Assembly: GCF_900166595.1 (NCBI RefSeq)
Contig: NZ_LT745763.1
Span: 1,251,761-1,315,760, forward strand
Length of the DNA: 64,000 nucleotides
Direction of reading: 5' to 3'
DNA from: Virgibacillus dokdonensis
Lineage (GTDB): Bacteria > Bacillota > Bacilli > Bacillales > Amphibacillaceae
This document shows positions 14,289 through 54,910 of this stretch, piece after piece; within the stretch, counting starts at the first letter, position 1, and each line of letters opens with the position of its first letter. The notes under the pieces were generated by a model, which saw only the letters and a list, made by a program, of their open reading frames with translations, had not been told where the DNA came from and made no database searches. The translations under genes and the position numbers were made by a program.

Positions 14289-14567
14289 TTGTTTTATACA
14301 TTATATTGCCGTATGTATCAACAAAAAATGAAGATTGCAAGTAAATGGATACATTGGCGTACACCCATATTAATTAAAGGTGAAAATAGTCTGCAACAAT
14401 TACCGAAAGTGTTGGAGCAAAATAAGCAAACACGAGTACTCATTGTAACGGATAAAGGATTAAGCGAATCAGGGTTACTTGATACTTTATGTGCTGATTT
14501 ACAATGTGCTAACATTGATTACGCTATTTACGATAAAACAGTCCCTAACCCAACTGTTAGAAATATT
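14289..14567 (+). pseudogene. Iron-type alcohol dehydrogenase, 5' part, interrupted by transposon
   Basis: The first 93 codons of an iron-containing alcohol dehydrogenase, starting at TTG 14289 behind AGGAGGGG. The N-terminal Rossmann-like region (TRVLIVTDKGL, about 49-60) and PNPTV loop are visible. The frame is cut exactly at 14567 by the left end of the composite transposon. The remainder is at 28791-29714 on the same strand. Joining 14567 to 28791 keeps the frame and gives a 400-residue protein, a normal length for the family, so the insertion is the only lesion seen. Confidence 0.95.
14560..14567. repeat. Target-site duplication, left copy
   Basis: GAAATATT directly before the left end of the composite transposon; repeated exactly at 28783-28790 after the right end. 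Eight bases is the usual duplication for ISL3-family elements. Confidence 0.95.
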
Positions 14568-14597
14568 GGGTAATCGGAAAATAGTGTGGAAAGAGGA

Positions 14598-15934
14598 TTA
14601 AAAGGTACCCTCTTCCATAGCCTTGATCAGTGTGGAAATATCAGCCCCATAGATTTCCTCATACACCCATTCATAGCCTGCTTGTTCCAAATTTGGAAAT
14701 TGATCAGGCAACATTTTTCCAAAAGTAATCTCAACTTCTTTGAATTTCTTTTTCTTTTTTATTTTACGATAGCCTTGTGTAAATAAGATTTTTGCTCTGA
14801 GGGCTTCAAAAGAGTAACCACGACCAACATGGTTCATTGTCTTAATTAAACGATTCAGGGATTCTGTATAGGCGTTTGTAATTGGAGAATTGAAATAGTT
14901 GAATATCTCTTCTTCCCAATTGTTCACTGCTTTTATTAGATCACCAAAATAAGCCATCAATTCTTTAGGTATATTTGAAAACCAGTTTTGATACAGTTTA
15001 TAGGCTTCGTTGATTGATTCAGCCTCATAAATGTCAAAGAATTGCTCTTTAAGCTCATATGCTTGACCAAGTAACGGGAATGTATCAGTCCATATTTGTA
15101 ATTTTATTTGGTCATCAAAGTCATTAAGGTCTTTACGTCTTGTTAGAAGTACGTAACGGTCTCTCATGAGTTGCCTACGTTCTTTGGACATTCTGGCGAT
15201 TAGCCTTTCGTATCTTTTCCAGGGCTTCATTGGCTAATTTAACAACATGAAACTTATCAATTACGATTTTGGCATGTGGTATCACTGATTTAACAGCACT
15301 TTTATAAGGATTCCACATATCCATTGCTACAAGTTCAATTTTATCAATGTCTTTGAGTCTTGAAAGATAACTGATAACCACATCTTTATTCCGTTTACGT
15401 AAAATATCAATTACCGACTTGTTTTCAACATCAGTGATGACACAACGATAATTTTTAAGCAAATGAACTTCATCAATACCAAGCCATTTAGGAGTTCTGA
15501 AATCTGTATGTGCTTCAAGTTCAGAAACATAATCATTGAATATGTTTCGAACAGTTTTTTCATCTACACCTATATCATCTGCAACGCTGGTAAAGGTCTT
15601 TTCGAGACTTGCTTCTTGAATCCAATCTATAAGTCTATTAGTAACCGAACGACTAACGTCCATATCGGGAAGGTTCTCAAAAAACGTTTCATTACACTCC
15701 CTACATTTATATCTTTGGCGATTGACATAAATACCAACACGTTTAGCGTGCATTGGTAGGTCGAAATATAGTTGTTGTTTCTTACCATGTTTGTATAAGT
15801 TTGCAACAGTACCACACTTTGGACAATGTGAAGGGGGGTAGTGTAGTAGACTCAACTAAGAATCTATAATCATATTCGCTTTCTTTCATATCCAGAATCT
15901 TTAAGTTTGGTAGATTGAGCATATTGGTTAACAT
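14598..15934 (-). pseudogene. ISL3-family transposase, broken into three frames (left copy)
   Basis: A DDE transposase with N-terminal zinc-finger cysteines (CPKC and CREC), then DDE residues in WLGIDEVHL, VAMDMW and TESLNRLIK. The natural start is ATG 15934 behind AAAGGA, but that frame (MLNLPNLKILDMKESEYDYR) stops at 15782. The zinc-finger and first catalytic part continue in a second frame to a stop at 15175, and the C-terminal part lies in a third frame (15230-14598). The first break is at a six-C run (about 15833-15838) that would read through with five Cs. Joined, the parts would give about 440 residues, normal for ISL3. Both copies share both breaks, so they could be mutations or +1 recoding sites. 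Confidence 0.85.
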
Positions 15935-15986
15935 TTACTTTTTCCTTTCAAAGTTTAGAATTAAAATAGAAAACTAATGAAAACAG

Positions 15987-16035
15987 CTCGTGAAAACCTA
16001 AATTAAAATAATGGTTTGACATAGGTTTCCACGAG
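15987..16035. terminator. Hairpin between transposase and HAAS gene (left IS)
   Basis: CTCGTGAAAACCTA pairs imperfectly with TAGGTTTCCACGAG around a 21-base loop. It lies just after the stop of the HAAS gene and may insulate the transposase from the passenger operon. The right IS has the same hairpin at 27381-27429. Confidence 0.55.
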
Positions 16036-16058
16036 TCTAATGTTATATTAGTTAATCT

Positions 16059-16817
16059 TCACTTACTTTTTTCCAATTTAGACAATATCCAGAGGTAAAT
16101 GGCAATTCCTCCAAAAGTTATGATTGTACTAACGATTAGTTGTGTTTCGTATTGCAATGTGGTCAGATTTAGTAAATAATCAGGAAGTGTTAACAATGCT
16201 ATTATAATGATTAAAGTCCATGATTTTGCCCAAATGGAAAAACCTATTATAAATAGTACTGTGATTACACCAATGATTAGGCTTCCAGTATTGCCGAAAT
16301 AAATGACGGGAGTGTCGATGGCTCTATTTAGGTAGATTAACCCAATAAATAGAGCGATGGGCAGTATCGCTATACCAGCCAATATCAACCCCTGTCTTTT
16401 GAGAGATTGATTTGATGTAGAAATATATTTAAACCCTGTGAAAACAGAAGCAATAAATATTGCACCAATTATAATATGCCCGATAATTTCCAAGATAGAA
16501 TAGGAGAGGTTGCCTTCTAATAAGTCAGGGAAAATTGTAATAGAAAATGATCCAAGAATGATTAGGCAAATGTATTTAAACCATGTTCTATAGTCAATTA
16601 ACATCTCGTTAGAAACCATCTCCATATATTCTTTCGGAGATTTTCCAATAATTTTTTCAATGGATTTTCCGTTTTTTTCGGCTTCGGACAAATGGATTTC
16701 TAATTCATTCACAATTTCCTCAATTTCATCCCATTGTTTTCCACTTGAAAATAAGTATACACGTAAGTTTTCCAAGAACTCTTGGCTTTCTTTAGAAAGT
16801 TTTAACTTATTCTTCAA
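16059..16817 (-). CDS. HAAS-type membrane protein, IS passenger (left copy)
   Basis: About 252 residues: a charged helical N-terminal domain (about 1-75, ESQEFLENLRVYLFS then EIVNELEIHLSEAEK) resembling the HAAS/DUF1700-like domain, then about six membrane helices. Such proteins are commonly encoded next to PadR regulators. I prefer TTG 16817, nine bases after the AAAGGAG inside the end of padR; an ATG at 16826 lies too close to that site. The start overlaps the padR stop, implying coupled translation. Its function is unknown; a membrane-linked signalling or regulator-sequestering role is only a guess. Confidence 0.7.
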   Translation of the reverse strand: MKNKLKLSKESQEFLENLRVYLFSSGKQWDEIEEIVNELEIHLSEAEKNGKSIEKIIGKSPKEYMEMVSNEMLIDYRTWFKYICLIILGSFSITIFPDLLEGNLSYSILEIIGHIIIGAIFIASVFTGFKYISTSNQSLKRQGLILAGIAILPIALFIGLIYLNRAIDTPVIYFGNTGSLIIGVITVLFIIGFSIWAKSWTLIIIIALLTLPDYLLNLTTLQYETQLIVSTIITFGGIAIYLWILSKLEKSK

Positions 16818-17169
16818 TGATGTCATCTCCTTTTGTATATTTTGTATCTGGCTCAAAACACAACACTTTGTTAATATTAGACTGTAAATTATTCCAGCGT
16901 TCTATAAATTTATTCAATTCTAACTCCCCCTTTGGAGTTAGTGAATAATATTTTCTCCTTGGTCCTGCTGTGGATTTTTTTAAGGTAGATTTAACTAATT
17001 CTTCTTTTTGCATCCGCAATAACAATGGATAAATTGTACCCTCACTAAAAGAGTGGAAACCATAACTTTCAAGTTTTTCTGCCATTTCGTAACCATATAC
17101 TTCTTTATCCTTGATAATTGCCAGCAAACAGCCATCAATGATACCCTTCAGCATTTGTGTTGTAGACAA
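16807..17169 (-). CDS. PadR-family transcriptional regulator, IS passenger (left copy)
   Basis: A 120-residue winged-helix regulator with the PadR pattern: a first helix ending LAIIKDKEVYGYEMAEKL, then SFSEGTIYPLLLRMQKEEL and the wing in GPRRKYYSLTPKGE. TTG 17169 is the start, seven bases after AGGAGG. It is the first gene of a two-gene unit with the HAAS membrane protein and lies behind a promoter with three palindromes, so it probably represses its own transcription. The right copy differs by one residue (Ile versus Val near residue 101). Confidence 0.88.
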   Translation of the reverse strand: MSTTQMLKGIIDGCLLAIIKDKEVYGYEMAEKLESYGFHSFSEGTIYPLLLRMQKEELVKSTLKKSTAGPRRKYYSLTPKGELELNKFIERWNNLQSNINKVLCFEPDTKYTKGDDIIEE

Positions 17170-17192
17170 ACTTCCCCCTCCTTTCTCACTAA

Positions 17193-17277
17193 CTTGTAAT
17201 ACAAGAGTTATGTTTATAAAGTATCATGCATTACATGATATATATGAAGAATAGCATTATTAGTCTTGTAATGCAAG
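17193..17277 (-). promoter_or_regulatory. padR promoter with three operator-like palindromes (left IS)
   Basis: On the minus strand, -35 TTGCAT (17271-17276) and -10 TATTCT (17248-17253) are 17 bases apart. Three palindromes surround it: CTTGTAATGCAAG (17265-17277) over the -35, TATCATGCATTACATGATA (17222-17240) just after the -10, and CTTGTAATACAAG (17193-17205) in the leader. Their shared TGTAAT/ATTACA cores fit PadR-type dyad operators. Confidence 0.7.
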
Positions 17278-17388
17278 GTATAATTCAAAGAAAATCCATA
17301 TAGAAAAGATTCCACACGATTATCCGATTCACGAGGATAAAATACTATATATATAATAGAAGTTTTCCATATGATAATCCGAATACCC

Positions 17389-17476
17389 CTTTTTCTTTTA
17401 TTTCAAAAGTAATATCTTCAAAAACCATATTTCCACCATACATTTTTGCGATATGATTCACACTGCAAATAATCAT
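17389..17476 (-). pseudogene. 5' stump of an ABC-F ATPase gene
   Basis: Reading leftward from ATG 17476, behind GAGGAGGAAGG, 29 codons begin MIICSVNHIAKMYGG and continue NMVFEDITFEIKEK, the typical start of an ABC-F protein (ribosome-protection or translation-factor type). The frame then runs into the inner end of the left IS. Upstream, a TGGGACA/TGTCCCA hairpin at about 17496-17524 may be its leader. This is a fragment of the donor replicon captured when the IS landed in that gene. Confidence 0.75.
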
Positions 17477-17545
17477 TTTCCTTCCTCCTCGTAATGGGAC
17501 AAATGCTCTGCCCCCATGTCCCAGTCCGCATTAATACCTTATGTC

Positions 17546-17598
17546 CGTTCAACTAACAATCAGCGGGGATAAAGCGCCCCGCTGATTGAAGTTTTACT
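17546..17598 (-). terminator. araA terminator, repeat family D copy 1
   Basis: CAATCAGCGGGG pairs with CCCCGCTGATTG. The surrounding bases (GTTCAACTAACA on one side, GAAGTTTTACTTTA on the other) recur around the araR terminator at 22733-22790, and decayed relatives lie near 38889 and 44200. Confidence 0.75.
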
Positions 17599-19023
17599 TT
17601 ATCGGATTGTTACACATTCCAATCCGAACATTTTCGCTAAATCTTCTATTTGTTTAGCTGTAACTGCAAATGATAGAACTGTATGGTGACCTCCACCATA
17701 TTCAACCCATTTTTCCACGCCATGCTGGAATCCGGCATTTATAGTCACCATTTGACGAGCGACCGGAAGATGCGGGGCAGGTTCCGCTGGGATACTTCCT
17801 TCTACTTCGTACATTACCATTCGGAAATGATCACCAAAGTCGGAAACAGTCAAGTTCACACCTTCTCCTTCCACTCCATCAAACACTAAGCGTGCAGGGT
17901 CTTCCTTATCACCAATACCTAGTGGGTGAACTTCCACACGTGGCTTCGTGCTTGCTAAGGTCGGATCAACTTCAAGCATATGCGAGCCTAGAATCGCTTC
18001 CTCACCTTTCACTAAGTTGTACGTATAATCTTCCATAAAGCCTGTCAACTTGTTATGAGTCATAATCTTAATTAAACGGTCAAGTGCTGCTGTTTTCCAG
18101 TCACCTTCACCAGCAAAACCAAACCCAGCTTCATTCAGACGCTGTACAGCCATACCAGGGAGCTGCTTCATACCCCATAGATCCTCGAAGTTCGTCGTGA
18201 ATGCAGTATAACCACCGCGCTCTAAAAATCTCTTCAATGCGATTTCAATCCTAATTTGTTCTTTCACTTGGTTTTCGAAAAATGCTGGATCATTTTCACC
18301 TACTACAAATTCGTATTTCTCTTCACACTCTTTATAAACCTCATCAATCGCTTCATCCGTCACTTCATTCATTTCAGCGACTAAATCACCAATACCGAAG
18401 TAATCGACTGTCCAACCGAATTGAATTTGTGCTTCAATCTTATCCCCGTCCGTAACAGCCACATTACGCATATTGTCACCAAATCTAGCAACTTTAATGT
18501 TGAAGCTTTCATTATAAGCAACAGCAACATCCATCCACTGTTTAATTTCCTTCTGAACATCTTCATCTTTCCAGTGGCCGACAACAATTTTATTATTTTT
18601 CTTCAAACGAGCATTAATGTAACCATACTCTCTATCCCCGTGTGCACTTTGGTGTAGGTTCATATAGTCCATATCAATGTCTTTCCATGGAATATTATTC
18701 GCTAACTGTGTATTCAAATGGAGCAACGGCTTTTGAAGTAGCTTCGTCCCTCTGATCCAGTTTTTCGCTGGAGAGAATGTATGCATCCACGTAATAACAC
18801 CAGCAACACGATCATTATAGTTAATTTCCTTCATAACCTCTGTGATGCTATCGGCAGTCGTCGCAACTGTTTTAAATACAATCGGATAAGGGAAATTACC
18901 CTTTTCATTTAATTCATTCATGATTTCTACCGCGTTTTCCTTAACGGCATTCAATGCTTCTTCCCCATATAAATGCTGACTTCCTACAATGAACCAAAAT
19001 TCATATTGATTTATTTCCAACAT
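17599..19023 (-). CDS. araA: L-arabinose isomerase
   Basis: A 474-residue cytosolic enzyme converting L-arabinose to L-ribulose. It begins with the family hallmark [14 protein letters not shown] (about 9-22), has [12 protein letters not shown] (about 89-100) and the metal/active-site region around [15 protein letters not shown] and [13 protein letters not shown]. The length is that of the lactic-acid-bacterium type and is shorter than the roughly 496-residue B. subtilis AraA. ATG 19023 follows AAGGAGGT. It is transcribed alone, leftward, from a promoter with an AraR-like box in its spacer. It works with AraB and AraD encoded in the same transposon. Confidence 0.96.
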
Positions 19024-19114
19024 AATAAAGACCTCCTTGAATTAAATATCTTAAGTTTCCCCTGCTCCATTCACATGGTTTGAATCTCTTTACAGTACTG
19101 TACGTTTAATATTT

Positions 19115-19129
19115 TGTAAATCGCTTACA
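19115..19129 (-). promoter_or_regulatory. cre-like site in the araA leader
   Basis: TGTAAGCGATTTACA on the minus strand, a near-palindrome resembling catabolite-response elements with one extra central base. It lies downstream of the araA -10, where bound CcpA could block elongation. Confidence 0.45.
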
Positions 19130-19135
19130 ACTTGT

Positions 19136-19190
19136 ATTGTATATTAATGATACGCACAAGTCAATAATAAGTTTATTTATACGTATAAAA
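19136..19190 (-). promoter_or_regulatory. araA promoter with paired AraR-like operators
   Basis: Minus strand -35 TTGACT (19159-19164), 17-base spacer, -10 TACAAT (19136-19141). A box reading ACTTGTGCGTATCATT (19146-19161) fills the spacer, and a second box, ATTTATACGTATAAAA (19175-19190), is centred 29 bp upstream. The boxes resemble AraR operators, which contain TTGTNCGTA-type half sites. Confidence 0.75.
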
Positions 19191-19265
19191 GATAGGTGAA
19201 TCATCTCTGTAAAACAATAGAACCCTTAATAAATCCACGTGTTCCAAAGCATATGACACTACACT

Positions 19266-19340
19266 ATTTATACGAACAAAAATATTTTAGTTGATTTGTC
19301 TGTACAATAATGATATTATTTATTTGTGAAAGCCTTTACT
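19266..19340 (+). promoter_or_regulatory. araE-like gene promoter with paired AraR-like operators and cre-like site
   Basis: -35 TTGATT (19291-19296), 17-base spacer, -10 TATTAT (19314-19319). The spacer holds ATTTGTCTGTACAATA (19294-19309); a second box ATTTATACGAACAAAA (19266-19281) is centred 28 bp upstream. TGAAAGCCTTTACT (19327-19340) just after the -10 is cre-like (12 of 14). A similar TGTAAGCCTTTACG lies farther down the leader near 19470. Confidence 0.7.
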
Positions 19341-19534
19341 TCCAGCTGAAAGTAACCATATAAAAGAGGAGGTACATTAGTTATACGCAATTAATTCATA
19401 TTTTTTAACATAGTTGTACTGATAAATAATTCCATTCACTTGCTAGTACTCTCATTACGTTCTTGTTTGTAAGCCTTTACGATTTTAAAGAAGTTATTTT
19501 CGAGAAATGTTCTACACCTAGGGAGGGAATTTAA

Positions 19535-20923
19535 TTGGTAAAAGAAAAAAAGATTTCTCATAAGTTTATCTATTTCTTTGGAGCTTTTGGAGGAATATTA
19601 TTCGGTTATGATATTGGTGTTATGACAGGAGCGCTTCCATTCCTGCAGCAAGATTGGGGACTGCAAAATGCGGCAACAATTGGTTTGATAACTTCTTCTA
19701 TTATGTTAGGGGCAATCTTCGGTGGTGCTCTTGCAGGACAACTTTCGGACCGTTTCGGGCGCCGGAAGATGATTCTAGCTTCTGCGATTATCTTCGTTAT
19801 TGGATCAATCCTTTCGGGAATTGCACCGCCTAATGGTGATATCTTCTTAATTATCGTTCGGGTCTTTCTTGGTCTTGCCGTTGGTGCAGCATCTGCACTT
19901 GTTCCGGCCTATATGTCAGAGATGGCTCCAGCCAAGTTACGGGGACGCTTATCTGGGATAAACCAGACAATGATTGTTTCCGGGATGTTACTGTCCTATG
20001 TTGTTGACTTTTTACTAAGCGGATTACCAACGACGATGGCTTGGCGCTCTATGCTTGCGATGGCAGCGGTACCAGCTATCATTCTGTTTCTCGGTGTATT
20101 AAAGTTACCGGAATCGCCTCGTTTCCTTATTAAAAATAATAAGATTGGCGAAGCTCGTCAGGTACTAAGCTATATTCGCCCAAATAAAGAAGCAATTGAA
20201 ACCGAAATCAAAGAAATTCAAGAGAGCAGTAAGCAAGAAAATCAGAAAGTTTCTTGGGGTGCTTTATTAAATAGTAAATATCGCTATTTAGTTATTGCCG
20301 GTGTCGGTGTCGCAGCCTTCCAGCAGTTCCAAGGAGCTAACGCGATATTCTACTATATCCCGTTAATCGTAGAATCAGCTACTGGACAAGCAGCAAGCTC
20401 TGCATTGCTGTGGCCGATTATCCAAGGTATCATTCTAGTAATAGGTTCCTTAGTGTTCCTTGTCATTGCGGATAAATTTAAGCGTCGGACATTGTTGACC
20501 CTCGGGGGTACAGTAATGGGGCTTTCCTTTATCTTCCCGGCGATCATCAATTCCATTGTTCCAGATGTGAACCCGATGATGATTGTTGTGTTCCTAAGTA
20601 TTTATGTCGCATTCTATTCCTTTACATGGGCACCTTTAACGTGGGTAATTGTCGGAGAAATCTTCCCGCTGCTCATCCGCGGACGTGCATCCGGTTTGGC
20701 TTCATCCTTTAACTGGATAGGATCTTTCCTAGTCGGATTGCTCTTTCCGATTATGACTGCATCGATGGCACAGGAAGCTGTATTCGCTATCTTTGGTATC
20801 ATTTGTCTACTCGGAGTCGCCTTTATCCGTATCCGTGTACCAGAAACTCGCGGCCGCACATTAGAAGAAATTGAGAAAATCGGTGAAATGAAAGGATTGG
20901 CAAAGAATAATAAAACAGCCTAA
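19535..20923 (+). CDS. araE: Sugar porter of the MFS family, AraE-like arabinose permease
   Basis: A 462-residue twelve-helix proton symporter. It carries sugar-porter signatures: FGYDIGVMTGALPFL (about 22-36), GQLSDRFGRRK (about 67-77), PESPRFLIK, the QQFQGANAIFYY substrate-site motif (about 261-272) and PETRGRTLEEIE near the end. Translation starts at TTG 19535 after GGGAGG. The family moves pentoses or hexoses; its place between araA and araB, with an AraR-like box in its promoter, makes L-arabinose the likely substrate. It begins a probable two-gene unit with araB (28-43 bases apart). The 215-base leader is unusually long. Confidence 0.88.
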   Translation: MVKEKKISHKFIYFFGAFGGILFGYDIGVMTGALPFLQQDWGLQNAATIGLITSSIMLGAIFGGALAGQLSDRFGRRKMILASAIIFVIGSILSGIAPPNGDIFLIIVRVFLGLAVGAASALVPAYMSEMAPAKLRGRLSGINQTMIVSGMLLSYVVDFLLSGLPTTMAWRSMLAMAAVPAIILFLGVLKLPESPRFLIKNNKIGEARQVLSYIRPNKEAIETEIKEIQESSKQENQKVSWGALLNSKYRYLVIAGVGVAAFQQFQGANAIFYYIPLIVESATGQAASSALLWPIIQGIILVIGSLVFLVIADKFKRRTLLTLGGTVMGLSFIFPAIINSIVPDVNPMMIVVFLSIYVAFYSFTWAPLTWVIVGEIFPLLIRGRASGLASSFNWIGSFLVGLLFPIMTASMAQEAVFAIFGIICLLGVAFIRIRVPETRGRTLEEIEKIGEMKGLAKNNKTA

Positions 20924-20966
20924 AATGAAGAGAGAACCAGAATAATAGATTTTGGAGGTAATTTTT

Positions 20967-22562
20967 ATGAATCTTACAGAGACGTCCACAGCGATTCAGC
21001 AAGGCGATGTATATCTCGGGATTGAATTAGGTTCTACGAGAATCAAAGCTGTCCTAATTGACAACGATTTCAATACGATTGCTGCTGGAAACTATGCCTG
21101 GGAAAATAAATTCGAAAATGGCATGTGGACCTATTCCCTTGAAGATGTTTGGAAAGGGATTCAAAGCAGTTATCTTCAACTAGCTGCTGACGTAGAAAGT
21201 AAATATCACACAACACTTTCAAATATTCGTTCCATTGGGGTAAGTGCCATGATGCACGGCTACTTACCCTTCTCAAAAAATGATGAATTACTAACACCGT
21301 TCCGTACATGGCGGAATAATACGACAGGACAGGCGGCACATGACTTGACCGAACTATTCCAATTCAATATTCCGGAGCGCTGGAGTATTGCCCATCTATA
21401 TCAAGCAATCCTTGATCAAGAAGAGCATGTACGTGAGGTTGATTTCATTACAACACTTGCAGGTTATGTCCACTGGAAGTTATCTGGAGAAAAAGTGTTA
21501 GGTGTAGGTGATGCTTCCGGCATGTTCCCAATTGAAGAATCGGGTTCTTATTCCGATAAGCATATAAAGCTGTTTGAAAACCTGGAAAATGTCTCTCAAT
21601 ACGACTGGAACCTTCTTGATATCCTCCCAAAAGTATTACAAGCAGGGGATCATGCAGGCACATTATCAGAAGCTGGTGCCAGATTACTAGATATAAACGG
21701 AAACCTTCAAGCCGGTAGTATCATGGCTCCTCCTGAAGGGGATGCGGGAACTGGAATGGTTAGTACGAATAGTGTTCGGAGACGAACTGGAAATATTTCC
21801 GTCGGGACTTCTGCCTTTTCCATGCTTGTCCTTGATAAACCATTACAGAAAGTCTATAAAGACATCGATCTCGTGACAACACCAAATAATGAGCCTGTTG
21901 CGATGGTCCATACGAATAATTGCTCTTCCGATATTAATGCTTGGGCTGGTATCTTTCAAGAATTCGCTGAACGTCTTGGCGTTAACCTTGATGAAGGCCG
22001 CTTATTTGAAATCCTATTCCACTCAACAACAAGATCAGAACCGGATGCTGGCGGATTAGTCAATTATAGTTATTTATCTGGTGAAAATATCACGAAAATG
22101 CCAGAAGGACGCCCTCTATTCGTAAGAGATGTCAATAGTTCCTTCACACTCGCTAACTTCTTCCTTACGCAGTTGTATGCAGCATTTGCTCCACTGAAAA
22201 TTGGAATGGATATTTTAATTAATGAAGAAAAAATCGAGACAAATGTTTTAATCGCACAAGGCGGCCTATTTAAAACACCTGTCATCGCCCAACAAATCCT
22301 CTCCAATGCACTAAATATACCGATTACGGTTATGAAAACGGCTAGTGAAGGCGGTGCTTGGGGTATGGCAGTACTTGCAGCTTACGTGAAGCAAGGAAAT
22401 AAGGAAATCAGTTTAGAGGATTTCCTTGACCAATACGTATTTACTGACCCGCAAAGTTCTACATTAAGCCCAGAACCTGCGGGGGTGGAAGGTTACGAGC
22501 AATTCATTACGAAATATAGGGCCGGACTACCAGTTGAATTAGCGGCAATTGAACATATTTAA
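20967..22562 (+). CDS. araB: L-ribulokinase, FGGY family
   Basis: A 531-residue FGGY-family kinase that phosphorylates L-ribulose to L-ribulose 5-phosphate. The N-terminal phosphate motif reads YLGIELGSTRIKAV (about 13-26); SVGTSAFSMLV and the ATP-site stretch EGGAWGMAVLAAY are also present. It resembles the lactic-acid-bacterium type more than the roughly 560-residue B. subtilis AraB and could be mistaken for a xylulokinase; the araA/araD neighbours decide. ATG 20967 follows TTGGAGGT at proper spacing, so the earlier in-frame TTG is part of the ribosome site. Confidence 0.88.
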   Translation: MNLTETSTAIQQGDVYLGIELGSTRIKAVLIDNDFNTIAAGNYAWENKFENGMWTYSLEDVWKGIQSSYLQLAADVESKYHTTLSNIRSIGVSAMMHGYLPFSKNDELLTPFRTWRNNTTGQAAHDLTELFQFNIPERWSIAHLYQAILDQEEHVREVDFITTLAGYVHWKLSGEKVLGVGDASGMFPIEESGSYSDKHIKLFENLENVSQYDWNLLDILPKVLQAGDHAGTLSEAGARLLDINGNLQAGSIMAPPEGDAGTGMVSTNSVRRRTGNISVGTSAFSMLVLDKPLQKVYKDIDLVTTPNNEPVAMVHTNNCSSDINAWAGIFQEFAERLGVNLDEGRLFEILFHSTTRSEPDAGGLVNYSYLSGENITKMPEGRPLFVRDVNSSFTLANFFLTQLYAAFAPLKIGMDILINEEKIETNVLIAQGGLFKTPVIAQQILSNALNIPITVMKTASEGGAWGMAVLAAYVKQGNKEISLEDFLDQYVFTDPQSSTLSPEPAGVEGYEQFITKYRAGLPVELAAIEHI

Positions 22563-22570
22563 TCCATGAA

Positions 22571-22633
22571 AAATCCGAATGATCTTCCCTCCTCCCTTAG
22601 AGTATAAGGTAAGGCTGAATCATTCGGACTTTT
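22571..22633 (+). terminator. Terminator after araB
   Basis: TCCGAATGAT (22574-22583) pairs with ATCATTCGGA (22619-22628), followed by CTTTTT. The loop is long, about 35 bases. A further large hairpin follows at 22646-22718 (ACGGTCTGTA and CCCCCACTT arms). Confidence 0.6.
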
Positions 22634-22732
22634 TATCACGCATTAACGGTCTGTAATACCCCCCACTTCTAAACACGAGGGAAGCCCAATATGTGAAGGT
22701 GGGGGATATACAGTCCGTAAATACCTGATTCT

Positions 22733-22790
22733 GTTCAACTAACATTCAGTGGGGGGTAAGGAATTCCCCACTGAATGAAGTTTCACTTTA
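22733..22790 (-). terminator. araR terminator, repeat family D copy 2
   Basis: CATTCAGTGGGG pairs with CCCCACTGAATG directly after the araR stop. The flanks GTTCAACTAACA and GAAGTTTCACTTTA match those of the araA terminator almost exactly. Confidence 0.75.
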
Positions 22791-23903
22791 CTATCCCTTC
22801 TTTTCCTGAAGAGAACCGTTAACTACCTCTAATTCTAGAACGGAATCGCGTTCGATCAACTCCGGCTCATAAACTTTGGAACGGACTTCCTGTTTATTAA
22901 TCATATCAATAATCATTTTCCCTGCATCAAATCCCATCTTTTCCTGAGGATGGCGAATCGTCGTCAAGCTTGGATTCGTGTATTTGGAAAACGGGTAATC
23001 ATCCACGCCAATAATCGAAATATCTTCTGGGATTTTTAAGCCAATCTCTTTTGCGAAATTCATAATTTGAATTGCCAGCTGATCATGGTAACAAACGATT
23101 GCCGTTGGAGCATATTTAGAACGCGTCAGCATCGTGTGCAGCTTTTTGAAGATATTATCTATTTTTTCCTCTGTCTGGTACATCATCATATCGCCCATAT
23201 TCGAGATTTCCGGATGGTCCTGATAAGCTTTGATAAAGCCATTCATCCGGTCAACCCCTTGCTTATCATCAACCTTGAATATTCCTACAATCTGCTGATG
23301 ACCTTTAGAAATTAAGTAATTGGTCGCCATCTCCCCTGTTTTCACATCATCCATCACTAAATACGGAATATCGAGATCATCGTACGTCGCGTTGATCGAT
23401 AACATCGGGATACCCATCGCTTTTATATTATCGTACATATTTTTATTGAGATTATTTCTCGCACTCTTTGTCGGCTCGATAATAAATCCTGACAATTGGT
23501 TGGCTGTCAGATTCGTTAAACTTTTCCGTTCTTTCTCTGGATTGTTCTGAGTATCGGCAATAAGTATCGAGTAACCGTATGCGGAGATATAATTATCGAT
23601 GCCGCTGATGATATTCGGGAAAATATAATCCGTTATATGTGTTGATATGAGCCCTATCGTTTTATTTTGAATTTGCTGCTTCGGTTTACTTTTCCAGTCA
23701 TTTACAAATATCCCGGCACCTTGAATCCGGTAAACGTAATTATCCTTCTCCAGCTCATCAATTGCCCGGCGCACCGTGAAGCGGCTTACTTCATACATTT
23801 CCATTAATTCTGATTCCGTCGGTAACTTATCACTCACCTGATAAGTACCCGATAAGATCTTCTCACTTATATCTATTTTAATTCGTTCATATTTTTTAAC
23901 CAT
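22791..23903 (-). CDS. araR: Arabinose operon repressor AraR
   Basis: A 370-residue chimeric repressor: a GntR-type winged helix at the N-terminus (about 1-70, PTESELMEMYEVSRFTVRRA then YRIQGAGIFV) fused to a LacI/PurR-type ligand domain (about 85-360, TIGLISTHITDYIFPNIISG and IIGVDDYPFSKY). This domain combination is diagnostic of AraR, which releases its operators when L-arabinose binds. Matching boxes lie in all four ara promoters of the element. Its own promoter may have TATAAT at 23936-23941 (minus strand) and a weak box at 23918-23933, suggesting autoregulation. Confidence 0.93.
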   Translation of the reverse strand: MVKKYERIKIDISEKILSGTYQVSDKLPTESELMEMYEVSRFTVRRAIDELEKDNYVYRIQGAGIFVNDWKSKPKQQIQNKTIGLISTHITDYIFPNIISGIDNYISAYGYSILIADTQNNPEKERKSLTNLTANQLSGFIIEPTKSARNNLNKNMYDNIKAMGIPMLSINATYDDLDIPYLVMDDVKTGEMATNYLISKGHQQIVGIFKVDDKQGVDRMNGFIKAYQDHPEISNMGDMMMYQTEEKIDNIFKKLHTMLTRSKYAPTAIVCYHDQLAIQIMNFAKEIGLKIPEDISIIGVDDYPFSKYTNPSLTTIRHPQEKMGFDAGKMIIDMINKQEVRSKVYEPELIERDSVLELEVVNGSLQEKKG

Positions 23904-23948
23904 GGCTAGATCCCCTTTTATATCATGACAAATTTATTATATCACAAA

Positions 23949-24006
23949 GAAAAAACGCTGCCTTGAAGAAGTAATTGATACACTCTTCAAAACAGCAGCG
24001 TTTTAT
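23949..24006 (-). terminator. araD terminator
   Basis: On the minus strand AAAACGCTGC and a TTTTGAAGAG arm pair with CTTCTTCAAGGCAGCGTTTTTT, ending in a T run just after the araD stop. Confidence 0.8.
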
Positions 24007-24014
24007 TCAAGTTA

Positions 24015-24713
24015 TCATTTATTTTGTCCATAATAAGCATTTTTTCCATGTTTTCTTAAATAATGTTTATCTAATAGGTAGGAATCCATGTCGATCTGAT
24101 GGGGGTTCAATTGCAATGTATGATACGCCATCTTGGATACCTCTTCTAAAACAACTGCATTATGGACCGCATCCTCTGCTGATTTACCCCATGTAAATGG
24201 ACCGTGATCGTTGACGAGAACTGCTGGTACTTCTAACGGATTAATTTTTCTTTCTTCAAAAGTCTCGACAATTACGTCACCCGTCTGCTTCTCATAATCA
24301 TGGACTACTTCCGATTCCTTCATTTTTCTCGTAACTGGAACCGGACCATAAAATGTATCCGCATGTGTCGTGCCAGCAGCTGGTACATCAAGGCCGGCTT
24401 GCGCAAATGTCACTGCCCATGGCGAGTGGGTATGAACGACTCCTTGGATTTCTGGAAAATGTTTATATAATACAAGATGAGTTGCTGTGTCACTCGATGG
24501 ATTTAAATCACCTTCCACAATATTCCCTTCCAAATCAAGAACAACCATTTGCTCTGATGTTAGTTCCTTATAGGCCACACCGCTCGGCTTAATGACGACG
24601 AGATTTTTTTCCCGATCAATCCCGCTGACATTTCCCCATGTGAACGTTACAAGATTATATTTTGGCAGTAACATATTCGCTTCATAGACTTCTTGTTTCA
24701 ATTTTTCCAACAT
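24015..24713 (-). CDS. araD: L-ribulose-5-phosphate 4-epimerase
   Basis: A 232-residue class II aldolase-fold enzyme that converts L-ribulose 5-phosphate to D-xylulose 5-phosphate, the last step into the pentose phosphate pathway. Zinc-binding and active-site motifs are intact: TWGNVSGID (about 25-33), [13 protein letters not shown] (about 73-85), [14 protein letters not shown] (about 92-105) and [14 protein letters not shown] 24713 follows AAGGGGAT. It is transcribed leftward, divergently from galM, from a promoter overlapping an AraR-like box, and ends in its own terminator before araR. Confidence 0.95.
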
Positions 24714-24750
24714 CGAGACTCATCCCCTTACAGAATTATTAACTACCCTC

Positions 24751-24833
24751 ATCTTACATCACTTGTCCGTATAAGTCAAAGGTAATTGACTTTCATACGT
24801 ATAAGTGATACAATTGCATTGTAACCGTTTACT
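24751..24833. promoter_or_regulatory. Divergent araD/galM promoters with two AraR-like boxes and a cre site
   Basis: araD (minus): TTGACT (24774-24779), 17 bases, TAAGAT (24751-24756), with box ACTTGTCCGTATAAGT (24761-24776). galM (plus): TTGACT (24786-24791), 17 bases, TACAAT (24809-24814), with box TTTCATACGTATAAGT (24791-24806). The box centres are 30 bp apart, so each can act as the distal site for the other promoter. TGTAACCGTTTACT (24820-24833) is a good cre match (13 of 14). Confidence 0.78.
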
Positions 24834-24857
24834 CAATCTAGAAAGTTGGTGCTCATA

Positions 24858-25895
24858 ATGGTGACAATTACAAAAGAAAAATTAAACGCTCAGACAGACA
24901 TTCCCTTAATGAAATATACGGTGGACAAAGGAAATGGTTATTCCTTTTCCTGTCTTAATGTCGGCGCTGCATTAACGTCGCTAACAATGCCAGATAAAGA
25001 CGGCAAGACTAGTAATATTTTACTTAGCTTCAATGACCCGGAGGATTTTATAACAGATCAGACGTACTTCTTTGGTAAAGCAATCGGCAGGGTCGGCGGA
25101 AGAATTAAAGATGGAGCTTTCCAGTTTAATAATGAATATATTCAATTGCCGCAAAATGAAGGTAATAACACATTACATGGTGGCAACAATGGATTCCATA
25201 GCTTATGGTGGGACGTTTCCGAACTTGAGAATGGCATAGTTTTCACGAAAACCATTGATCCTGAGATGGACGGCTTCCCCGCTGAACTCGCTGCGTCCAT
25301 TTCATACACTTGGATTTCCGGAAATCAGTTACAAATTGAGTTTACCGGTGAAAACCAATCCGAAATGGCGACCTTGTTCAATCCGACTACCCATAATTAT
25401 TTTAATTTAAACGATAATAAAACAGCTGGACTCAAAAGTCATCTATTAAGCATTCCTGCGCGTGAGACGGTGGAGCTTGATAAGAACCAAATCCCAACTG
25501 GTAAACTACTAAATATTTCGGGCACAGCTTATGACTTTAACAAGGAAAGTAGTCTCTTAGAAAAATTAGAGTCTGTCAAACAAATTGGAGCATCTGGCTT
25601 TGATGACCCTTATAAGGTAACGGATTCAGAGATTGCCGTATTAAGGAATTCGGATAATGGACGATATATTCGCATCCACTCAGATCGAAATGGACTTGTT
25701 TTCTATTCTCTAAACGCGACTGAATCAAAGGAAATCGTAAATGATGGGCATGCCTTATCCCCGCATATGGCTGTTGCACTCGAGCCGCAAACATTACCTG
25801 GTGCAGTTCATCATCCGGATTTTGGTAATATTGTGCTTGATGCAGGTGATAAAAAGACATATCGGATTATTTATGAATTGTCAGTTGATGCGTGA
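24858..25895 (+). CDS. galM: Aldose 1-epimerase (mutarotase)
   Basis: A 345-residue GalM-family enzyme that interconverts alpha and beta anomers of free sugars. Family residues are visible: GKAIGRVGGRI (about 75-85), NEGNNTLHGGNNGFHS with the active-site histidine (about 97-112), and THNYFNLN (about 179-186) with the second histidine. The catalytic glutamate is probably in ALEPQTLPGAVHHPDF. It likely speeds supply of the arabinose anomer accepted by AraA. ATG 24858 has only a weak ribosome site. It is the last cargo gene, 66 bases before the right IS. Confidence 0.9.
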   Translation: MVTITKEKLNAQTDIPLMKYTVDKGNGYSFSCLNVGAALTSLTMPDKDGKTSNILLSFNDPEDFITDQTYFFGKAIGRVGGRIKDGAFQFNNEYIQLPQNEGNNTLHGGNNGFHSLWWDVSELENGIVFTKTIDPEMDGFPAELAASISYTWISGNQLQIEFTGENQSEMATLFNPTTHNYFNLNDNKTAGLKSHLLSIPARETVELDKNQIPTGKLLNISGTAYDFNKESSLLEKLESVKQIGASGFDDPYKVTDSEIAVLRNSDNGRYIRIHSDRNGLVFYSLNATESKEIVNDGHALSPHMAVALEPQTLPGAVHHPDFGNIVLDAGDKKTYRIIYELSVDA

Positions 25896-25991
25896 TTTTA
25901 CGGGATAAACTCAATCGTTAGGAGCAGAGTCCAAACGCGCTCCCAGCCACTTATAAATAAGGGGTAATCGGAAAATAGTGTGGAAAGAGGA

Positions 25992-27328
25992 TTAAAAGGT
26001 ACCCTCTTCCATAGCCTTGATCAGTGTGGAAATATCAGCCCCATAGATTTCCTCATACACCCATTCATAGCCTGCTTGTTCCAAATTTGGAAATTGATCA
26101 GGTAACATTTTTCCAAAAGTAATCTCAACTTCTTTGAATTTCTTTTTCTTTTTTATTTTACGATAGCCTTGTGTAAATAAGATTTTTGCTCTGAGGGCTT
26201 CAAAAGAGTAACCACGACCAACATGGTTCATTGTCTTAATTAAACGATTCAGGGATTCTGTATAGGCGTTTGTAATTGGAGAATTGAAATAGTTGAATAT
26301 CTCTTCTTCCCAATTGTTCACTGCTTTTATTAGATCACCAAAATAAGCCATCAATTCTTTAGGTATATTTGAAAACCAGTTTTGATACAGTTTATAGGCT
26401 TCGTTGATTGATTCAGCCTCATAAATGTCAAAGAATTGCTCTTTAAGCTCATATGCTTGACCAAGTAACGGGAATGTATCAGTCCATATTTGTAATTTTA
26501 TTTGGTCATCAAAGTCATTAAGGTCTTTACGTCTTGTTAGAAGTACGTAACGGTCTCTCATGAGTTGCCTACGTTCTTTGGACATTCTGGCGATTAGCCT
26601 TTCGTATCTTTTCCAGGGCTTCATTGGCTAATTTAACAACATGAAACTTATCAATTACGATTTTGGCATGTGGTATCACTGATTTAACAGCACTTTTATA
26701 AGGATTCCACATATCCATTGCTACAAGTTCAATTTTATCAATGTCTTTGAGTCTTGAAAGATAACTGATAACCACATCTTTATTCCGTTTACGTAAAATA
26801 TCAATTACCGACTTGTTTTCAACATCAGTGATGACACAACGATAATTTTTAAGCAAATGAACTTCATCAATACCAAGCCATTTAGGAGTTCTGAAATCTG
26901 TATGTGCTTCAAGTTCAGAAACATAATCATTGAATATGTTTCGAACAGTTTTTTCATCTACACCTATATCATCTGCAACGCTGGTAAAGGTCTTTTCGAG
27001 ACTTGCTTCTTGAATCCAATCTATAAGTCTATTAGTAACCGAACGACTAACGTCCATATCGGGAAGGTTCTCAAAAAACGTTTCATTACACTCCCTACAT
27101 TTATATCTTTGGCGATTGACATAAATACCAACACGTTTAGCGTGCATTGGTAGGTCGAAATATAGTTGTTGTTTCTTACCATGTTTGTATAAGTTTGCAA
27201 CAGTACCACACTTTGGACAATGTGAAGGGGGGTAGTGTAGTAGACTCAACTAAGAATCTATAATCATATTCGCTTTCTTTCATATCCAGAATCTTTAAGT
27301 TTGGTAGATTGAGCATATTGGTTAACAT
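25992..27328 (-). pseudogene. ISL3-family transposase, broken into three frames (right copy)
   Basis: Identical in structure to the left transposase: start ATG 27328, a break at the six-C run (about 27227-27232), a stop of the middle frame at 26569 and the C-terminal frame at 26624-25992. DDE residues and zinc-finger cysteines are all present across the frames. One silent base difference (near 26103) was noticed. Confidence 0.85.
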
Positions 27329-27452
27329 TTACTTTTTCCTTTCAAAGTTTAGAATTAAAATAGAAAACTAATGAAAACAGCTCGTGAAAACCTAAATTAA
27401 AATAATGGTTTGACATAGGTTTCCACGAGTCTAATGTTATATTAGTTAATCT

Positions 27453-28211
27453 TCACTTACTTTTTTCCAATTTAGACAATATCCAGAGGTAAATGGCAAT
27501 TCCTCCAAAAGTTATGATTGTACTAACGATTAGTTGTGTTTCGTATTGCAATGTGGTCAGATTTAGTAAATAATCAGGAAGTGTTAACAATGCTATTATA
27601 ATGATTAAAGTCCATGATTTTGCCCAAATGGAAAAACCTATTATAAATAGTACTGTGATTACACCAATGATTAGGCTTCCAGTATTGCCGAAATAAATGA
27701 CGGGAGTGTCGATGGCTCTATTTAGGTAGATTAACCCAATAAATAGAGCGATGGGCAGTATCGCTATACCAGCCAATATCAACCCCTGTCTTTTGAGAGA
27801 TTGATTTGATGTAGAAATATATTTAAACCCTGTGAAAACAGAAGCAATAAATATTGCACCAATTATAATATGCCCGATAATTTCCAAGATAGAATAGGAG
27901 AGGTTGCCTTCTAATAAGTCAGGGAAAATTGTAATAGAAAATGATCCAAGAATGATTAGGCAAATGTATTTAAACCATGTTCTATAGTCAATTAACATCT
28001 CGTTAGAAACCATCTCCATATATTCTTTCGGAGATTTTCCAATAATTTTTTCAATGGATTTTCCGTTTTTTTCGGCTTCGGACAAATGGATTTCTAATTC
28101 ATTCACAATTTCCTCAATTTCATCCCATTGTTTTCCACTTGAAAATAAGTATACACGTAAGTTTTCCAAGAACTCTTGGCTTTCTTTAGAAAGTTTTAAC
28201 TTATTCTTCAA
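27453..28211 (-). CDS. HAAS-type membrane protein, IS passenger (right copy)
   Basis: The same 252-residue protein as in the left IS from TTG 28211 onward: HAAS-like cytosolic helical domain followed by about six membrane helices. Translation is coupled to padR by overlap. A base change upstream opens a longer in-frame extension in this copy, but no ribosome site supports it. Confidence 0.7.
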   Translation of the reverse strand: MKNKLKLSKESQEFLENLRVYLFSSGKQWDEIEEIVNELEIHLSEAEKNGKSIEKIIGKSPKEYMEMVSNEMLIDYRTWFKYICLIILGSFSITIFPDLLEGNLSYSILEIIGHIIIGAIFIASVFTGFKYISTSNQSLKRQGLILAGIAILPIALFIGLIYLNRAIDTPVIYFGNTGSLIIGVITVLFIIGFSIWAKSWTLIIIIALLTLPDYLLNLTTLQYETQLIVSTIITFGGIAIYLWILSKLEKSK

Positions 28212-28563
28212 TGATGTCATCTCCTTTTGTATATTTTGTATCTGGCTCAAAACACAACACTTTGTTAACATTAGACTGTAAATTATTCCAGCGTTCTATA
28301 AATTTATTCAATTCTAACTCCCCCTTTGGAGTTAGTGAATAATATTTTCTCCTTGGTCCTGCTGTGGATTTTTTTAAGGTAGATTTAACTAATTCTTCTT
28401 TTTGCATCCGCAATAACAATGGATAAATTGTACCCTCACTAAAAGAGTGGAAACCATAACTTTCAAGTTTTTCTGCCATTTCGTAACCATATACTTCTTT
28501 ATCCTTGATAATTGCCAGCAAACAGCCATCAATGATACCCTTCAGCATTTGTGTTGTAGACAA
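28201..28563 (-). CDS. PadR-family transcriptional regulator, IS passenger (right copy)
   Basis: A 120-residue PadR-type winged-helix protein, starting at TTG 28563, with Val in place of Ile at about residue 101 relative to the left copy. Both copies should bind the same three palindromes, so the two IS copies would be co-regulated in trans. Confidence 0.88.
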   Translation of the reverse strand: MSTTQMLKGIIDGCLLAIIKDKEVYGYEMAEKLESYGFHSFSEGTIYPLLLRMQKEELVKSTLKKSTAGPRRKYYSLTPKGELELNKFIERWNNLQSNVNKVLCFEPDTKYTKGDDIIEE

Positions 28564-28586
28564 ACTTCCCCCTCCTTTCTCACTAA

Positions 28587-28671
28587 CTTGTAATACAAGA
28601 GTTATGTTTATAAAGTATCATGCATTACATGATATATATGAAGAATAGCATTATTAGTCTTGTAATGCAAG
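28587..28671 (-). promoter_or_regulatory. padR promoter with three operator-like palindromes (right IS)
   Basis: Copy of the left control region: palindromes at 28587-28599, 28616-28634 and 28659-28671 around a -35 (28665-28670) and -10 (28642-28647) spaced by 17 bases. Confidence 0.7.
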
Positions 28672-28782
28672 GTATAATTCAAAGAAAATCCATATAGAAA
28701 AGATTCCACACGATTATCCGATTCACGAGGATAAAATACTATATATATAATAGAAGTTTTCCATATGATAATCCGAATACCC

Positions 28783-28790
28783 GAAATATT
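28783..28790. repeat. Target-site duplication, right copy
   Basis: GAAATATT directly after the right end of the composite transposon, identical to 14560-14567. Confidence 0.95.
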
Positions 28791-29714
28791 GAAGAAGCAC
28801 TTACTTTATTTTGCGACCAACAATGTAAAGCAATGATTGCTTTAGGGGGTGGATCCGTTATAGACTGTGCAAAAGTAGTTGGGGCTAGATTTGCTTATCC
28901 AAATAAATCTATATCTAAAATGAAAGGTCAATTAAAGGTTCGTAAAGAGACACCAACATTATATGCTGTCCCGACTACTGCAGGGTCTGGGAGTGAAGCA
29001 ACGTTAGCAGCTGTTGTTAGTAATCCTGCTACTTCCGAAAAGTATGCTATTAATTCCCCAGTGTTAACCCCAAATTATGCTTTGCATGATCCAAAATTGC
29101 TTGTTAATCTTCCGCCGTTTATGACGGCAACCACAGGTATGGATGCGCTAACGCATGCAATTGAAGCGTTTATCGGAAAGAGCAATACGCAAAAGACGCG
29201 TGATTGGAGTAAGCAGGCTGTGGTTTTAATTTTTGGAAATTTGGAACAAAGTTATATAGAGCCAGAAGATTTAACAGCTAGAGCAAGCATGCAAAAGGCT
29301 TCCTATCTAGCTGGAAAAGCTTTTACTCGCGCTTATGTTGGCTATGTTCATGCTATCGCTCATACATTCGGTGGTTTTTATCAGGTGCCACATGGTTACG
29401 CAAATGCTATTATATTGCCATATGTTTTGGAATTTTATGATGACGTGGTTTACGATTTATTGGCTGAACTTGCAGATACAGTACAGCCTATCAACCAATT
29501 CTCATCTAATAAAGAGAAAGCACTTTGGATGATCAGGGAAATAAAACGAATGAATAAAGCAATGGGTATCCCTGAAAAAATAGCTACAATTGATAAAGGT
29601 GTTATCCCTAAAATGGTAGAAAGGGCTCTAAAGGAAGCAAACCCATTATATCCAGTCCCTAAAATACTAACTAAACAAGATTTGTACCACCTGTATTATC
29701 AAATTACTGAATGA
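28791..29714 (+). pseudogene. Iron-type alcohol dehydrogenase, 3' part
   Basis: The last 307 codons of the interrupted dehydrogenase, beginning EEALTLFCDQQCKAMIALGG in frame with the 5' part. It holds the NAD-binding GGGSVIDCAK, the TTAGSGSEAT loop, and the iron ligands in MDALTHAIEAF (Asp and His), YVHAIAHTFGG and VPHGYANA (His residues). A remnant polypeptide could be translated from ATG 28833 (293 residues), but it would lack the N-terminal cofactor domain and is not expected to be active. Confidence 0.95.
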
Positions 29715-33207: not shown

Positions 33208-33309
33208 TTTAGACAAAATAATGACAAATAGTAGCGCTTACTGTACACAATTCCAGATGATCGTTATAGTAAGATTGGGAATATAGAACGTTGAAAAGGA
33301 TGGATGGGC

Positions 33310-34350
33310 ATGGCAAACAAATTCAATGATACGATTATTCGAGCTTATAAAGGGGAATCTACGAATTATACACCAGCTTGGTTTATGCGTCAGGCTGGGA
33401 GGTCACAACCTGAATATAGAAAATTAAAAGAGAAGTATTCTTTATTTGAAATTACACATCAACCAGAATTATGTGCCTATGTAACGAGATTACCAGTAGA
33501 AAATTACAATGTAGACGCAGCCATTCTGTATAAAGATATCATGTCTCCACTGCCAGCATTAGGGGTGGATGTGGAAATTAAATCAGGTATTGGTCCAGTG
33601 ATTGATAATCCAATTGCCTCTCTTCGTGATGTAGAAAAGCTTGGAGCAATTGATCCACAATCCGATGTTCCGTATGTATTGGAGACAATTCGCCTGTTGA
33701 CACAAGAACAGTTACAAGTACCCTTAATCGGTTTTAGTGGCGCTCCTTTTACATTGGCGAGCTATATGATTGAGGGAGGACCATCAAAGAACTACAGTAA
33801 AACGAAAGCATTTATGTATCAGCAACGAGAAGCATGGTTTTTATTAATGGATAAATTGGCTGATATGACCATTACGTATGTAGAAGCTCAGATTGAAGCT
33901 GGTGCACAGGCTATTCAAATTTTTGATTCTTGGGTAGGTAATTTAAATGCATCTGATTACCGTATTTTTATTAAACCAGTAATGACAAGAATTTTTTCTG
34001 AACTGCAACGACATGATGTCCCACTCATTCTATTTGGTGTCGGCGCACGGCATTTATTGATGGAGTTTAACAATTTACCTGTTGATGTGATTGGGTTAGA
34101 CTGGAGGACTTCCGTGCAAGAAGCAAGGAATATGGGAGTTACGAAAGTGTTGCAAGGAAATTTAGACCCAGCTATTTTGTTAACAGAATGGGAAATGCTA
34201 GAGAAGCGAACACAAGCTATATTGGATGAAGGCTTAGCAGATGGAAACCATGTTTTTAATCTTGGTCATGGCGTGACGCCAGATATTCAACCGGCTACAT
34301 TAAAAAGATTAACTACGTTTATTCATGAGTATAGTCAGCGAAATAGGTGA
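33310..34350 (+). CDS. hemE: Uroporphyrinogen decarboxylase
   Basis: A 346-residue TIM-barrel enzyme that decarboxylates uroporphyrinogen III to coproporphyrinogen III. Both signatures are clear: [16 protein letters not shown] (about 21-36) and [17 protein letters not shown] (about 140-156); [11 protein letters not shown] is also typical. AAAGGA is nine bases before ATG 33310 and only three before ATG 33304, so the former is chosen. It begins the hemEHY operon. Confidence 0.95.
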
Positions 34351-34383
34351 AAAGAAAAAATTAAATTTGCGAGGTGTTGAAGC

Positions 34384-36727: not shown

Positions 36728-36730
36728 CCT

Positions 36731-36765
36731 TAACCCCCTATAATGGTTGCCATTTTAGGGGGTTA
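36731..36765. terminator. Shared hairpin between hemY and pepF
   Basis: TAACCCCCTATAATGG pairs with CCATTTTAGGGGGTTA. A strong stem at the meeting point of two converging genes, but without a clear T run on either strand. Confidence 0.6.
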
Positions 36766-36773
36766 TCATGTCG

Positions 36774-39080: not shown

Positions 39081-39209
39081 TTATCTTGCTGGATGATCAC
39101 ATTCGTCACATAAATTTCCATAGCAGTCTGCTTTTTCTAACATATCATTTCCACATTTACTACATTTTTTCTTAGGTAAATTTCTGAAAAATTCAAGAAC
39201 GTTGAGCAT
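39081..39209 (-). CDS. yhfH: YhfH-family small zinc-ribbon-like protein
   Basis: A 42-residue protein starting MLNVLEFFRNLPKKKCSKCG, with five cysteines (about positions 16, 19, 29, 34 and 37) and a C-terminal LCDECDHPAR. Spacing suggests a small zinc-binding knuckle. Length, sequence and position beside lplJ match the YhfH family of Bacillus, whose function is unknown. GGAGG lies seven bases before ATG 39209. It has its own good promoter and terminator. Confidence 0.85.
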   Translation of the reverse strand: MLNVLEFFRNLPKKKCSKCGNDMLEKADCYGNLCDECDHPAR

Positions 39210-39244
39210 TGGACTTCCTCCCCCTCGGTTAGTAATTACAAACT

Positions 39245-54906: not shown

Positions 54907-54910
54907 TTGT

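Follow-up and report, generated by a model that had tools for sequence, protein, structure and literature searches.

How did a set of genes that should permit the import and catabolism of L-arabinose come to lie inside a gene for an Fe-containing alcohol dehydrogenase in Virgibacillus dokdonensis? The question is raised by a 64,000-nucleotide stretch of this genome (RefSeq assembly GCF_900166595.1, contig NZ_LT745763.1, positions 1,251,761 to 1,315,760; hereafter, the window), for which an initial annotation had proposed that the arabinose (ara) genes moved as a unit between two insertion sequences (ISs) of the ISL3 family. We interpret the segment as a composite (class I) transposon that formed in a donor resembling Oceanobacillus and then entered the Virgibacillus chromosome, a reading to which we assign a probability of roughly 0.87.

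The unit spans positions 14568 to 28782 of the window (14,215 bp) and is bounded by two directly oriented IS copies of 2,821 bp that differ at 2 of 2,821 positions and enclose unrelated DNA. The octamer GAAATATT occurs twice, at the outer ends only (14560 to 14567 and 28783 to 28790), and the chance of an 8-bp match at two fixed places is about 2.6 × 10−5 given the base composition of the window. The inner flanks do not match (CTTTTTCT at 17389 to 17396 versus TAAATAAG at 25954 to 25961). The initial annotation was thus correct to the base with respect to the IS pair, the perfect outer duplication, and the unmatched inner flanks, and its gene order (araA, araE-like porter, kinase, araR, araD, and aldose 1-epimerase) was also right, with all frames open. 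What it had missed is that each of the two IS copies, though real, carries passenger genes for a PadR-family regulator and a HAAS membrane protein and has a split transposase frame.

If the insertion interpretation is correct, related genomes should retain the target in its undisrupted form. The dehydrogenase flanks, when joined by a script, yield one open frame of 409 residues, and the corresponding locus was sought in eight genomes of the genus including the host, i.e., in seven congeners. The target aligned without interruption across the junction, with nothing between the two halves, in four of the seven (G001, G003, G004, and G007); a comparison with empty dehydrogenase genes is a check that the initial annotation had proposed. 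G001, which we take to be Virgibacillus chiguensis, is identical over 126 bases spanning the junction and has a single GAAATATT in the locus (L018). In the other three congeners (G002, G005, and G006), only the outer neighbors were matched and no dehydrogenase was found at the locus. An AraA query matched the host, which has one araA copy, and one of the seven congeners, whose copy is 54% identical. In G001, the closest congener (contig C25), the dehydrogenase has itself decayed, with stretches gone on both sides of the insertion point, and the target is therefore dispensable there.

These observations bear on the possibility that the ara genes came separately and that two ISs landed on either side of them later by chance. 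ISL3 elements are common enough to lend this some plausibility (70 of 146 genomes of the family have some match to the IS); in that case, however, each IS would have its own duplication, whereas GAAATATT links the two outer ends. Moreover, congeners have nothing between the dehydrogenase halves, and the borders of the cargo fall exactly at the ends of the ISs. We consider this scenario very improbable. Later IS insertion beside a resident ara locus was rejected on account of the outer duplication and the empty site.

Among the 146 family genomes, the only one besides the host to reach 99% with the AraA query was G137, whose genus we take to be Oceanobacillus, separate from that of the host. 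Its ara locus matches the cargo in two pieces, 17389 to 17500 (2 mismatches in 112 bases) and 17512 to 25962 (160 mismatches in 8,452 bases), giving in total 162 mismatches over 8,564 aligned bases (about 98% identity), with about 468 extra bases in G137 between the pieces. A high mismatch count at 17389 to 17688 was rejected as true divergence, being an alignment artifact at this indel; in the BLAST alignment, the 112 bases ahead of the indel contain 2 mismatches. The host and G137 sequences diverge immediately outside 17389 and 25962, the latter being the first base of the right IS, at which the agreement is coincidental. The G137 locus is flanked by a penicillin amidase gene and, at the opposite end, by an ABC-F gene, and no transposase frame was detected beside it (frames of at least 90 amino acids [aa] in the 40 kb around the locus). 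In a whole-cargo search of 159 family genomes, the next-best pieces were at most 79% identical, and a sample of 397 genomes of the order, from which G137 is absent, gave no nonhost cargo match above 75% at an E value of 1e-300 or better. As a control, host genes in the region from 31030 to 41000 were only 67 to 73% identical to G137 where they matched, short repeats aside. The new observation is an IS-free donor-type locus in another genus with cargo edges that coincide with the inner IS ends; together with the outer duplication and the uninterrupted target in four congeners, it supports the earlier proposal of movement as a unit.

The same comparison bears on the technical explanation that the joins are an assembly artifact or contamination. 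IS copies are a usual place for false joins, and the analysis covered the assembly only. Against this, the unit lies inside a single 4.2-Mb contig of a 4.6-Mb genome, has a target duplication, and differs from G137 by the 162 mismatches and the indel of about 468 bp, so that we find an artifact hardly credible; contamination in particular was rejected on the single contig and the differences from the donor-type genome.

The direction of transfer can be read from the left edge of the cargo. This edge is a remnant, 29 codons long, from the start of an ABC-F gene and shows one amino-acid difference from the ABC-F gene of G137; the ABC-F relative that the host has of its own lies elsewhere, with 55% identity. 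Because this edge is the start of the ABC-F gene that adjoins ara in G137, the cargo appears to have been cut from an Oceanobacillus-type chromosome. We take the remnant to fix the direction as donor to host, the left IS having apparently entered the ABC-F gene. A dispersed repeat of about 160 bp between araB and araR agrees with this direction, though less strongly: G137 has at least 57 matches to it (40 of 216 candidates scored), with 48 of the 49 listed being 86 to 98% identical, and the host has four, of which the cargo copy alone was strong enough for listing. The close subfamily alone would be informative in this regard. Some of the matches in G137 are arranged as head-to-tail pairs, and weaker relatives occur across both genera.

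We propose that in the donor one passenger-bearing ISL3 element would have entered the ABC-F gene next to ara and that another, oriented alike, would have landed beyond galM, as the cargo edges suggest. The 14,215-bp unit would then have moved into the dehydrogenase gene and duplicated GAAATATT; here the act of movement is reconstructed, and the duplication and the uninterrupted site are observed. The same final structure would result if a lone ISL3 copy had already occupied the dehydrogenase gene and a circular molecule comprising the cargo and one IS (a translocatable unit) had entered by IS-IS recombination. The direct orientation of the copies is the expected product of this route, and PMC9484755 discusses circular units of this sort for IS6-family elements. 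Nevertheless, we judge it improbable, in that the host has no other 2,821-bp copy (six of its eight IS matches are partial and 74 to 84% identical), the seven congeners show partial IS matches at most (two candidates scored per genome), and the two copies differ at 2 positions only, as expected from joint arrival.

Several observations weigh against a composite transposon with this history. (i) Divergence at synonymous sites (dS) from G137 is uneven, ranging from 0 in araB through 0.009 in araR, 0.018 in araE, 0.08 in araD, and 0.11 in araA to 0.23 in galM; therefore, G137 is not the exact donor, and the true donor would be a relative of it. The ara locus itself looks mosaic. (ii) No genome was found with the IS pair still at the donor locus, and the full 2,821-bp IS was recovered outside the host in none of the 146 family and 397 order genomes, with two candidates scored per genome. 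(iii) The dispersed repeat has relatives in Virgibacillus (51 matches in G005, 49 in G004, 40 in G003, 36 in G002, 24 in G007, 1 in G001, and none in G006); these are weaker and often partial, making the repeat a partly specific clue. (iv) Neither IS copy appears to have a working transposase, both being frameshifted, which counts against self-driven movement at present. (v) The function of the cargo is predicted from sequence. The features of the locus are collected in Table 1.

Table 1. Features of the composite element and its target gene (positions in the window)
Feature	Positions	Strand	Basis
Fe-containing alcohol dehydrogenase, 5′ part	14289..14567	+	Pfam Fe-ADH on 14289-14573; contiguous with 3′ part in 4/7 congeners
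Left target duplication	14560..14567		Single copy in G001 locus L018
Left ISL3-family element, 2,821 bp	14568..17388	-	Pairwise IS comparison, Pfam
Left transposase, split frames 15855-15175 and 15230-14598	14598..15855	-	Frame list, Pfam, comparison with intact relatives
Passenger gene, HAAS transmembrane protein	16059..16856	-	Pfam HAAS_TM
Passenger gene, PadR-family regulator	16807..17169	-	Pfam PadR
Cargo, 8,573 bp	17389..25961		98% identical to G137 C26; match stops at both inner IS ends
ABC-F gene remnant, 5′ end, 88 bp	17389..17476	-	Comparison with G137
araA, L-arabinose isomerase	17599..19023	-	Pfam; NCBIfam NF002795 above cut-off
Four AraR-like 16-bp sites (starts 19175, 19266, 19294, 19412), araA-araE gap	19175..19427		Motif scan
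araE-like sugar porter (major facilitator superfamily)	19535..20923	+	Pfam Sugar_tr; TIGR00879 above cut-off
FGGY kinase, probable L-ribulokinase (araB)	20952..22562	+	Pfam FGGY_N and FGGY_C; context
Dispersed repeat, about 160 bp, between araB and araR	22632..22790		Close relatives in donor-type genome
araR, GntR/LacI-type arabinose repressor	22791..23903	-	Pfam; PDB 3tb6 (E 1.3e-78), 4egy (E 1.7e-10)
araD, L-ribulose-5-phosphate 4-epimerase	24015..24713	-	NF006047 above cut-off; TIGR00760 384.5 bits vs cut-off 389.1
AraR-like site, araD-galM gap	24761..24776		Motif scan
galM-like aldose 1-epimerase	24846..25895	+	Pfam Aldose_epim above cut-off; NCBIfam galM models below cut-off
Right ISL3-family element, 2,821 bp, genes and lesions as in left	25962..28782	-	Pairwise IS comparison, frame analysis
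Right target duplication	28783..28790		Matches left copy
Fe-containing alcohol dehydrogenase, 3′ part	28791..29714	+	Pfam on 28833-29714

Assignment of the two ISs to the ISL3 family is supported by Pfam matches of the split transposase halves to DDE_Tnp_ISL3, a helix-turn-helix domain, and a zinc ribbon (NCBIfam NF033550 is above its cut-off on the first half only) and by the ends, GGGTAATCGG and, inverted, GGGTATTCGG, which are imperfect terminal repeats starting with GG and are accompanied by the 8-bp duplication typical of this family. Comparison with three intact 446-aa relatives revealed the same two frameshifts in both copies: in the left one, these are a 1-nucleotide insertion near 15838 and a 5-nucleotide deletion near 15187. 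As the three relatives have a single 446-aa frame, programmed frameshifting is unlikely. The lesions weigh against present autonomy and leave past movement as a unit untouched; the element probably cannot move unaided now, and any further movement would need transposase in trans because both frames are split by the same lesions. Either the lesions preceded a movement that was helped in trans or they arose later in one copy, from which gene conversion passed them on to its partner.

A source for such help could exist today, given a second ISL3 element in the host (L132; about 2357272 to 2362878 of G000:C15; 5,607 bp) that has an intact 446-aa transposase frame and ends that match those of the IS copies in the window perfectly for 29 and 16 bases. 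It is flanked on both sides by the 8-bp duplication CATATTTT, and its passengers are a TetR regulator and two MMPL-family proteins; the genes around it, judged by eye from their translations, concern cell division and the cell wall. Another genome has a 3,370-bp ISL3 element (L130; G107:C13, about 53838 to 57207) with ends as in the window IS, the duplication CAAAAAAA, and a MerR/TipAS regulator and a DUF2268 protein as passengers, and the family with these ends seems to exchange its passenger modules. The IS core (positions 1 to about 1381) is also met in other genomes apart from the PadR-HAAS part (about 1496 to 2760), and the latter apart from the core; among the 146 family and 397 order genomes, with two candidates scored per genome, no match outside the host spans both. 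We tentatively suggest, without holding it to be the likelier course, that the composite already lacked a functional transposase at the time of its movement, with a doubly frameshifted copy on each side of ara, and crossed between genera with the help of a related ISL3 transposase in trans. Were this true, intact ISL3 elements that share these ends and bring different passengers, such as the TetR-MMPL element of the host and the MerR-DUF2268 element of the other genome, would form a trans-mobilizing, gene-shuttling family.

In the order sample, 10 of 397 genomes, the host included, match the IS at an E value of 1e-200 or better. A cluster of proteins 99% identical to the HAAS protein (P0241) comprises 14 sequences on 25 contigs, the longest being 2,922 bp; contigs so near the IS length hint that the IS is present in other assemblies as collapsed repeat contigs. 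The composite itself was not found among 72,556 plasmid records, of which 15 matched, all at 80 to 90% identity and none covering 80% of the query; these plasmids, with ISL3 cores at 82 to 86% identity, come from Enterococcus (13), Bacillus (1), and Cytobacillus (1). Nor was it found among 50,697 phage records, of which two matched partially at about 82% (Bacillus phage SPBc2 and a hybrid of SPBc2), and viral contigs gave no exact match to one junction pattern.

The cargo should, as judged from its gene families, permit L-arabinose import and catabolism under AraR control. It would encode import, equilibration of anomers, and the route from L-ribulose via L-ribulose-5-phosphate to D-xylulose-5-phosphate. 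The initial annotation had claimed a full pathway, and families for the isomerase, porter, AraR, and epimerase were indeed identified; AraA and AraD pass curated models (AraD not TIGR00760). Its araB, however, rests on context, as the kinase passes Pfam FGGY only and scores 107 bits with the xylulokinase model (cut-off 380) and 38 bits with the ribulokinase model (cut-off 428). Its best PDB matches are weak ones to xylulokinases, and its relatives carry either name. It is likely an L-ribulokinase because a homologue (51 to 78% identity) lies near araA in 36 of the 38 loci compared (the first 38 of 80 araA loci). As a side observation among araA loci, the chromosome of Heyndrickxia coagulans 36D1 carries two araA genes that are separated by about 12.8 kb and do not share their neighbors (L022 and L023); no repeated flanking element of at least 200 bp was seen at these loci, and a 52-bp tandem array occupies L022:1-924.

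The repressor matches the PDB arabinose-repressor entries 3tb6 and 4egy. Sites for it were sought with a 16-bp AraR consensus, allowing up to four mismatches. This recovered four AraR-like sites in the araA-araE gap (0.095 expected) and one in the araD-galM gap (0.010 expected), versus one in 7,315 bp of coding sequence, and none in the araB-araR and araR-araD gaps, both of which are beside araR. The five candidate sites, in two of the four gaps, are consistent with regulation by an AraR-type repressor. The earlier claim that each gene has its own control sites accordingly stands before araA/araE and araD/galM and fails for the gaps beside araR. A separate scan turned up few cre-like sites, without a clear excess over the number expected.

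With the host and congeners that lack araA, one can ask directly whether a newly acquired pathway that brings along its repressor and operator-like sites functions immediately. Further, the evidence for transfer of sugar pathways comes mostly from gene trees; in this case, the donor-type locus, the moving unit, the target duplication, and the empty site align base by base, direction included. A close counterpart of the cargo outside a transposon is the ara locus of Oceanobacillus luteolus AMY 52 (L020), in which all six genes keep the order and orientation seen here; unlike in G137, its ABC-F gene is about 7.6 kb from araA and does not adjoin it, and there is no transposon. The encoded proteins are 59 to 91% identical.

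With respect to the ISs, ISPst2, an ISL3 element of Arthrobacter plasmids (PMC6305408), is similar in size (2,985 bp) and in having two passengers (a regulator and a membrane protein), an 8-bp duplication, and ends that begin with GGGTAT; it differs in that its passengers are an ArsR regulator and a permease rather than PadR and HAAS and in being a single IS. As for composites, titles and abstract openings in the literature already include composite transposons with catabolic genes and, among the matches listed (subscription papers being mostly outside the search), none that carries arabinose genes. A 2022 report (PMC9484755) describes two identically oriented ISL3 elements around the chromosomal liaSR genes of Enterococcus faecium, a directly oriented structure that, to its authors' knowledge, was undescribed for the ISL3 family. 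That structure is putative, lacks transposition evidence, involves resistance-linked genes, and, in the passages seen, comes with no cross-genus donor locus. An older paper (PMC1590026) cites Tn14751 of Corynebacterium glutamicum, a native composite transposon with IS31831, which it groups with ISL3-family-like sequences. As far as can be compared through this citing paper, Tn14751 (17.4 kb by the cited title) likewise carries chromosomal DNA and differs in host and cargo; no donor locus in a second genus was seen for it. The present element is thus of a known kind, a composite transposon with metabolic cargo, in an unusually well-documented instance, and it extends the short list of ISL3 composites found in the literature surveyed by a cross-genus example.

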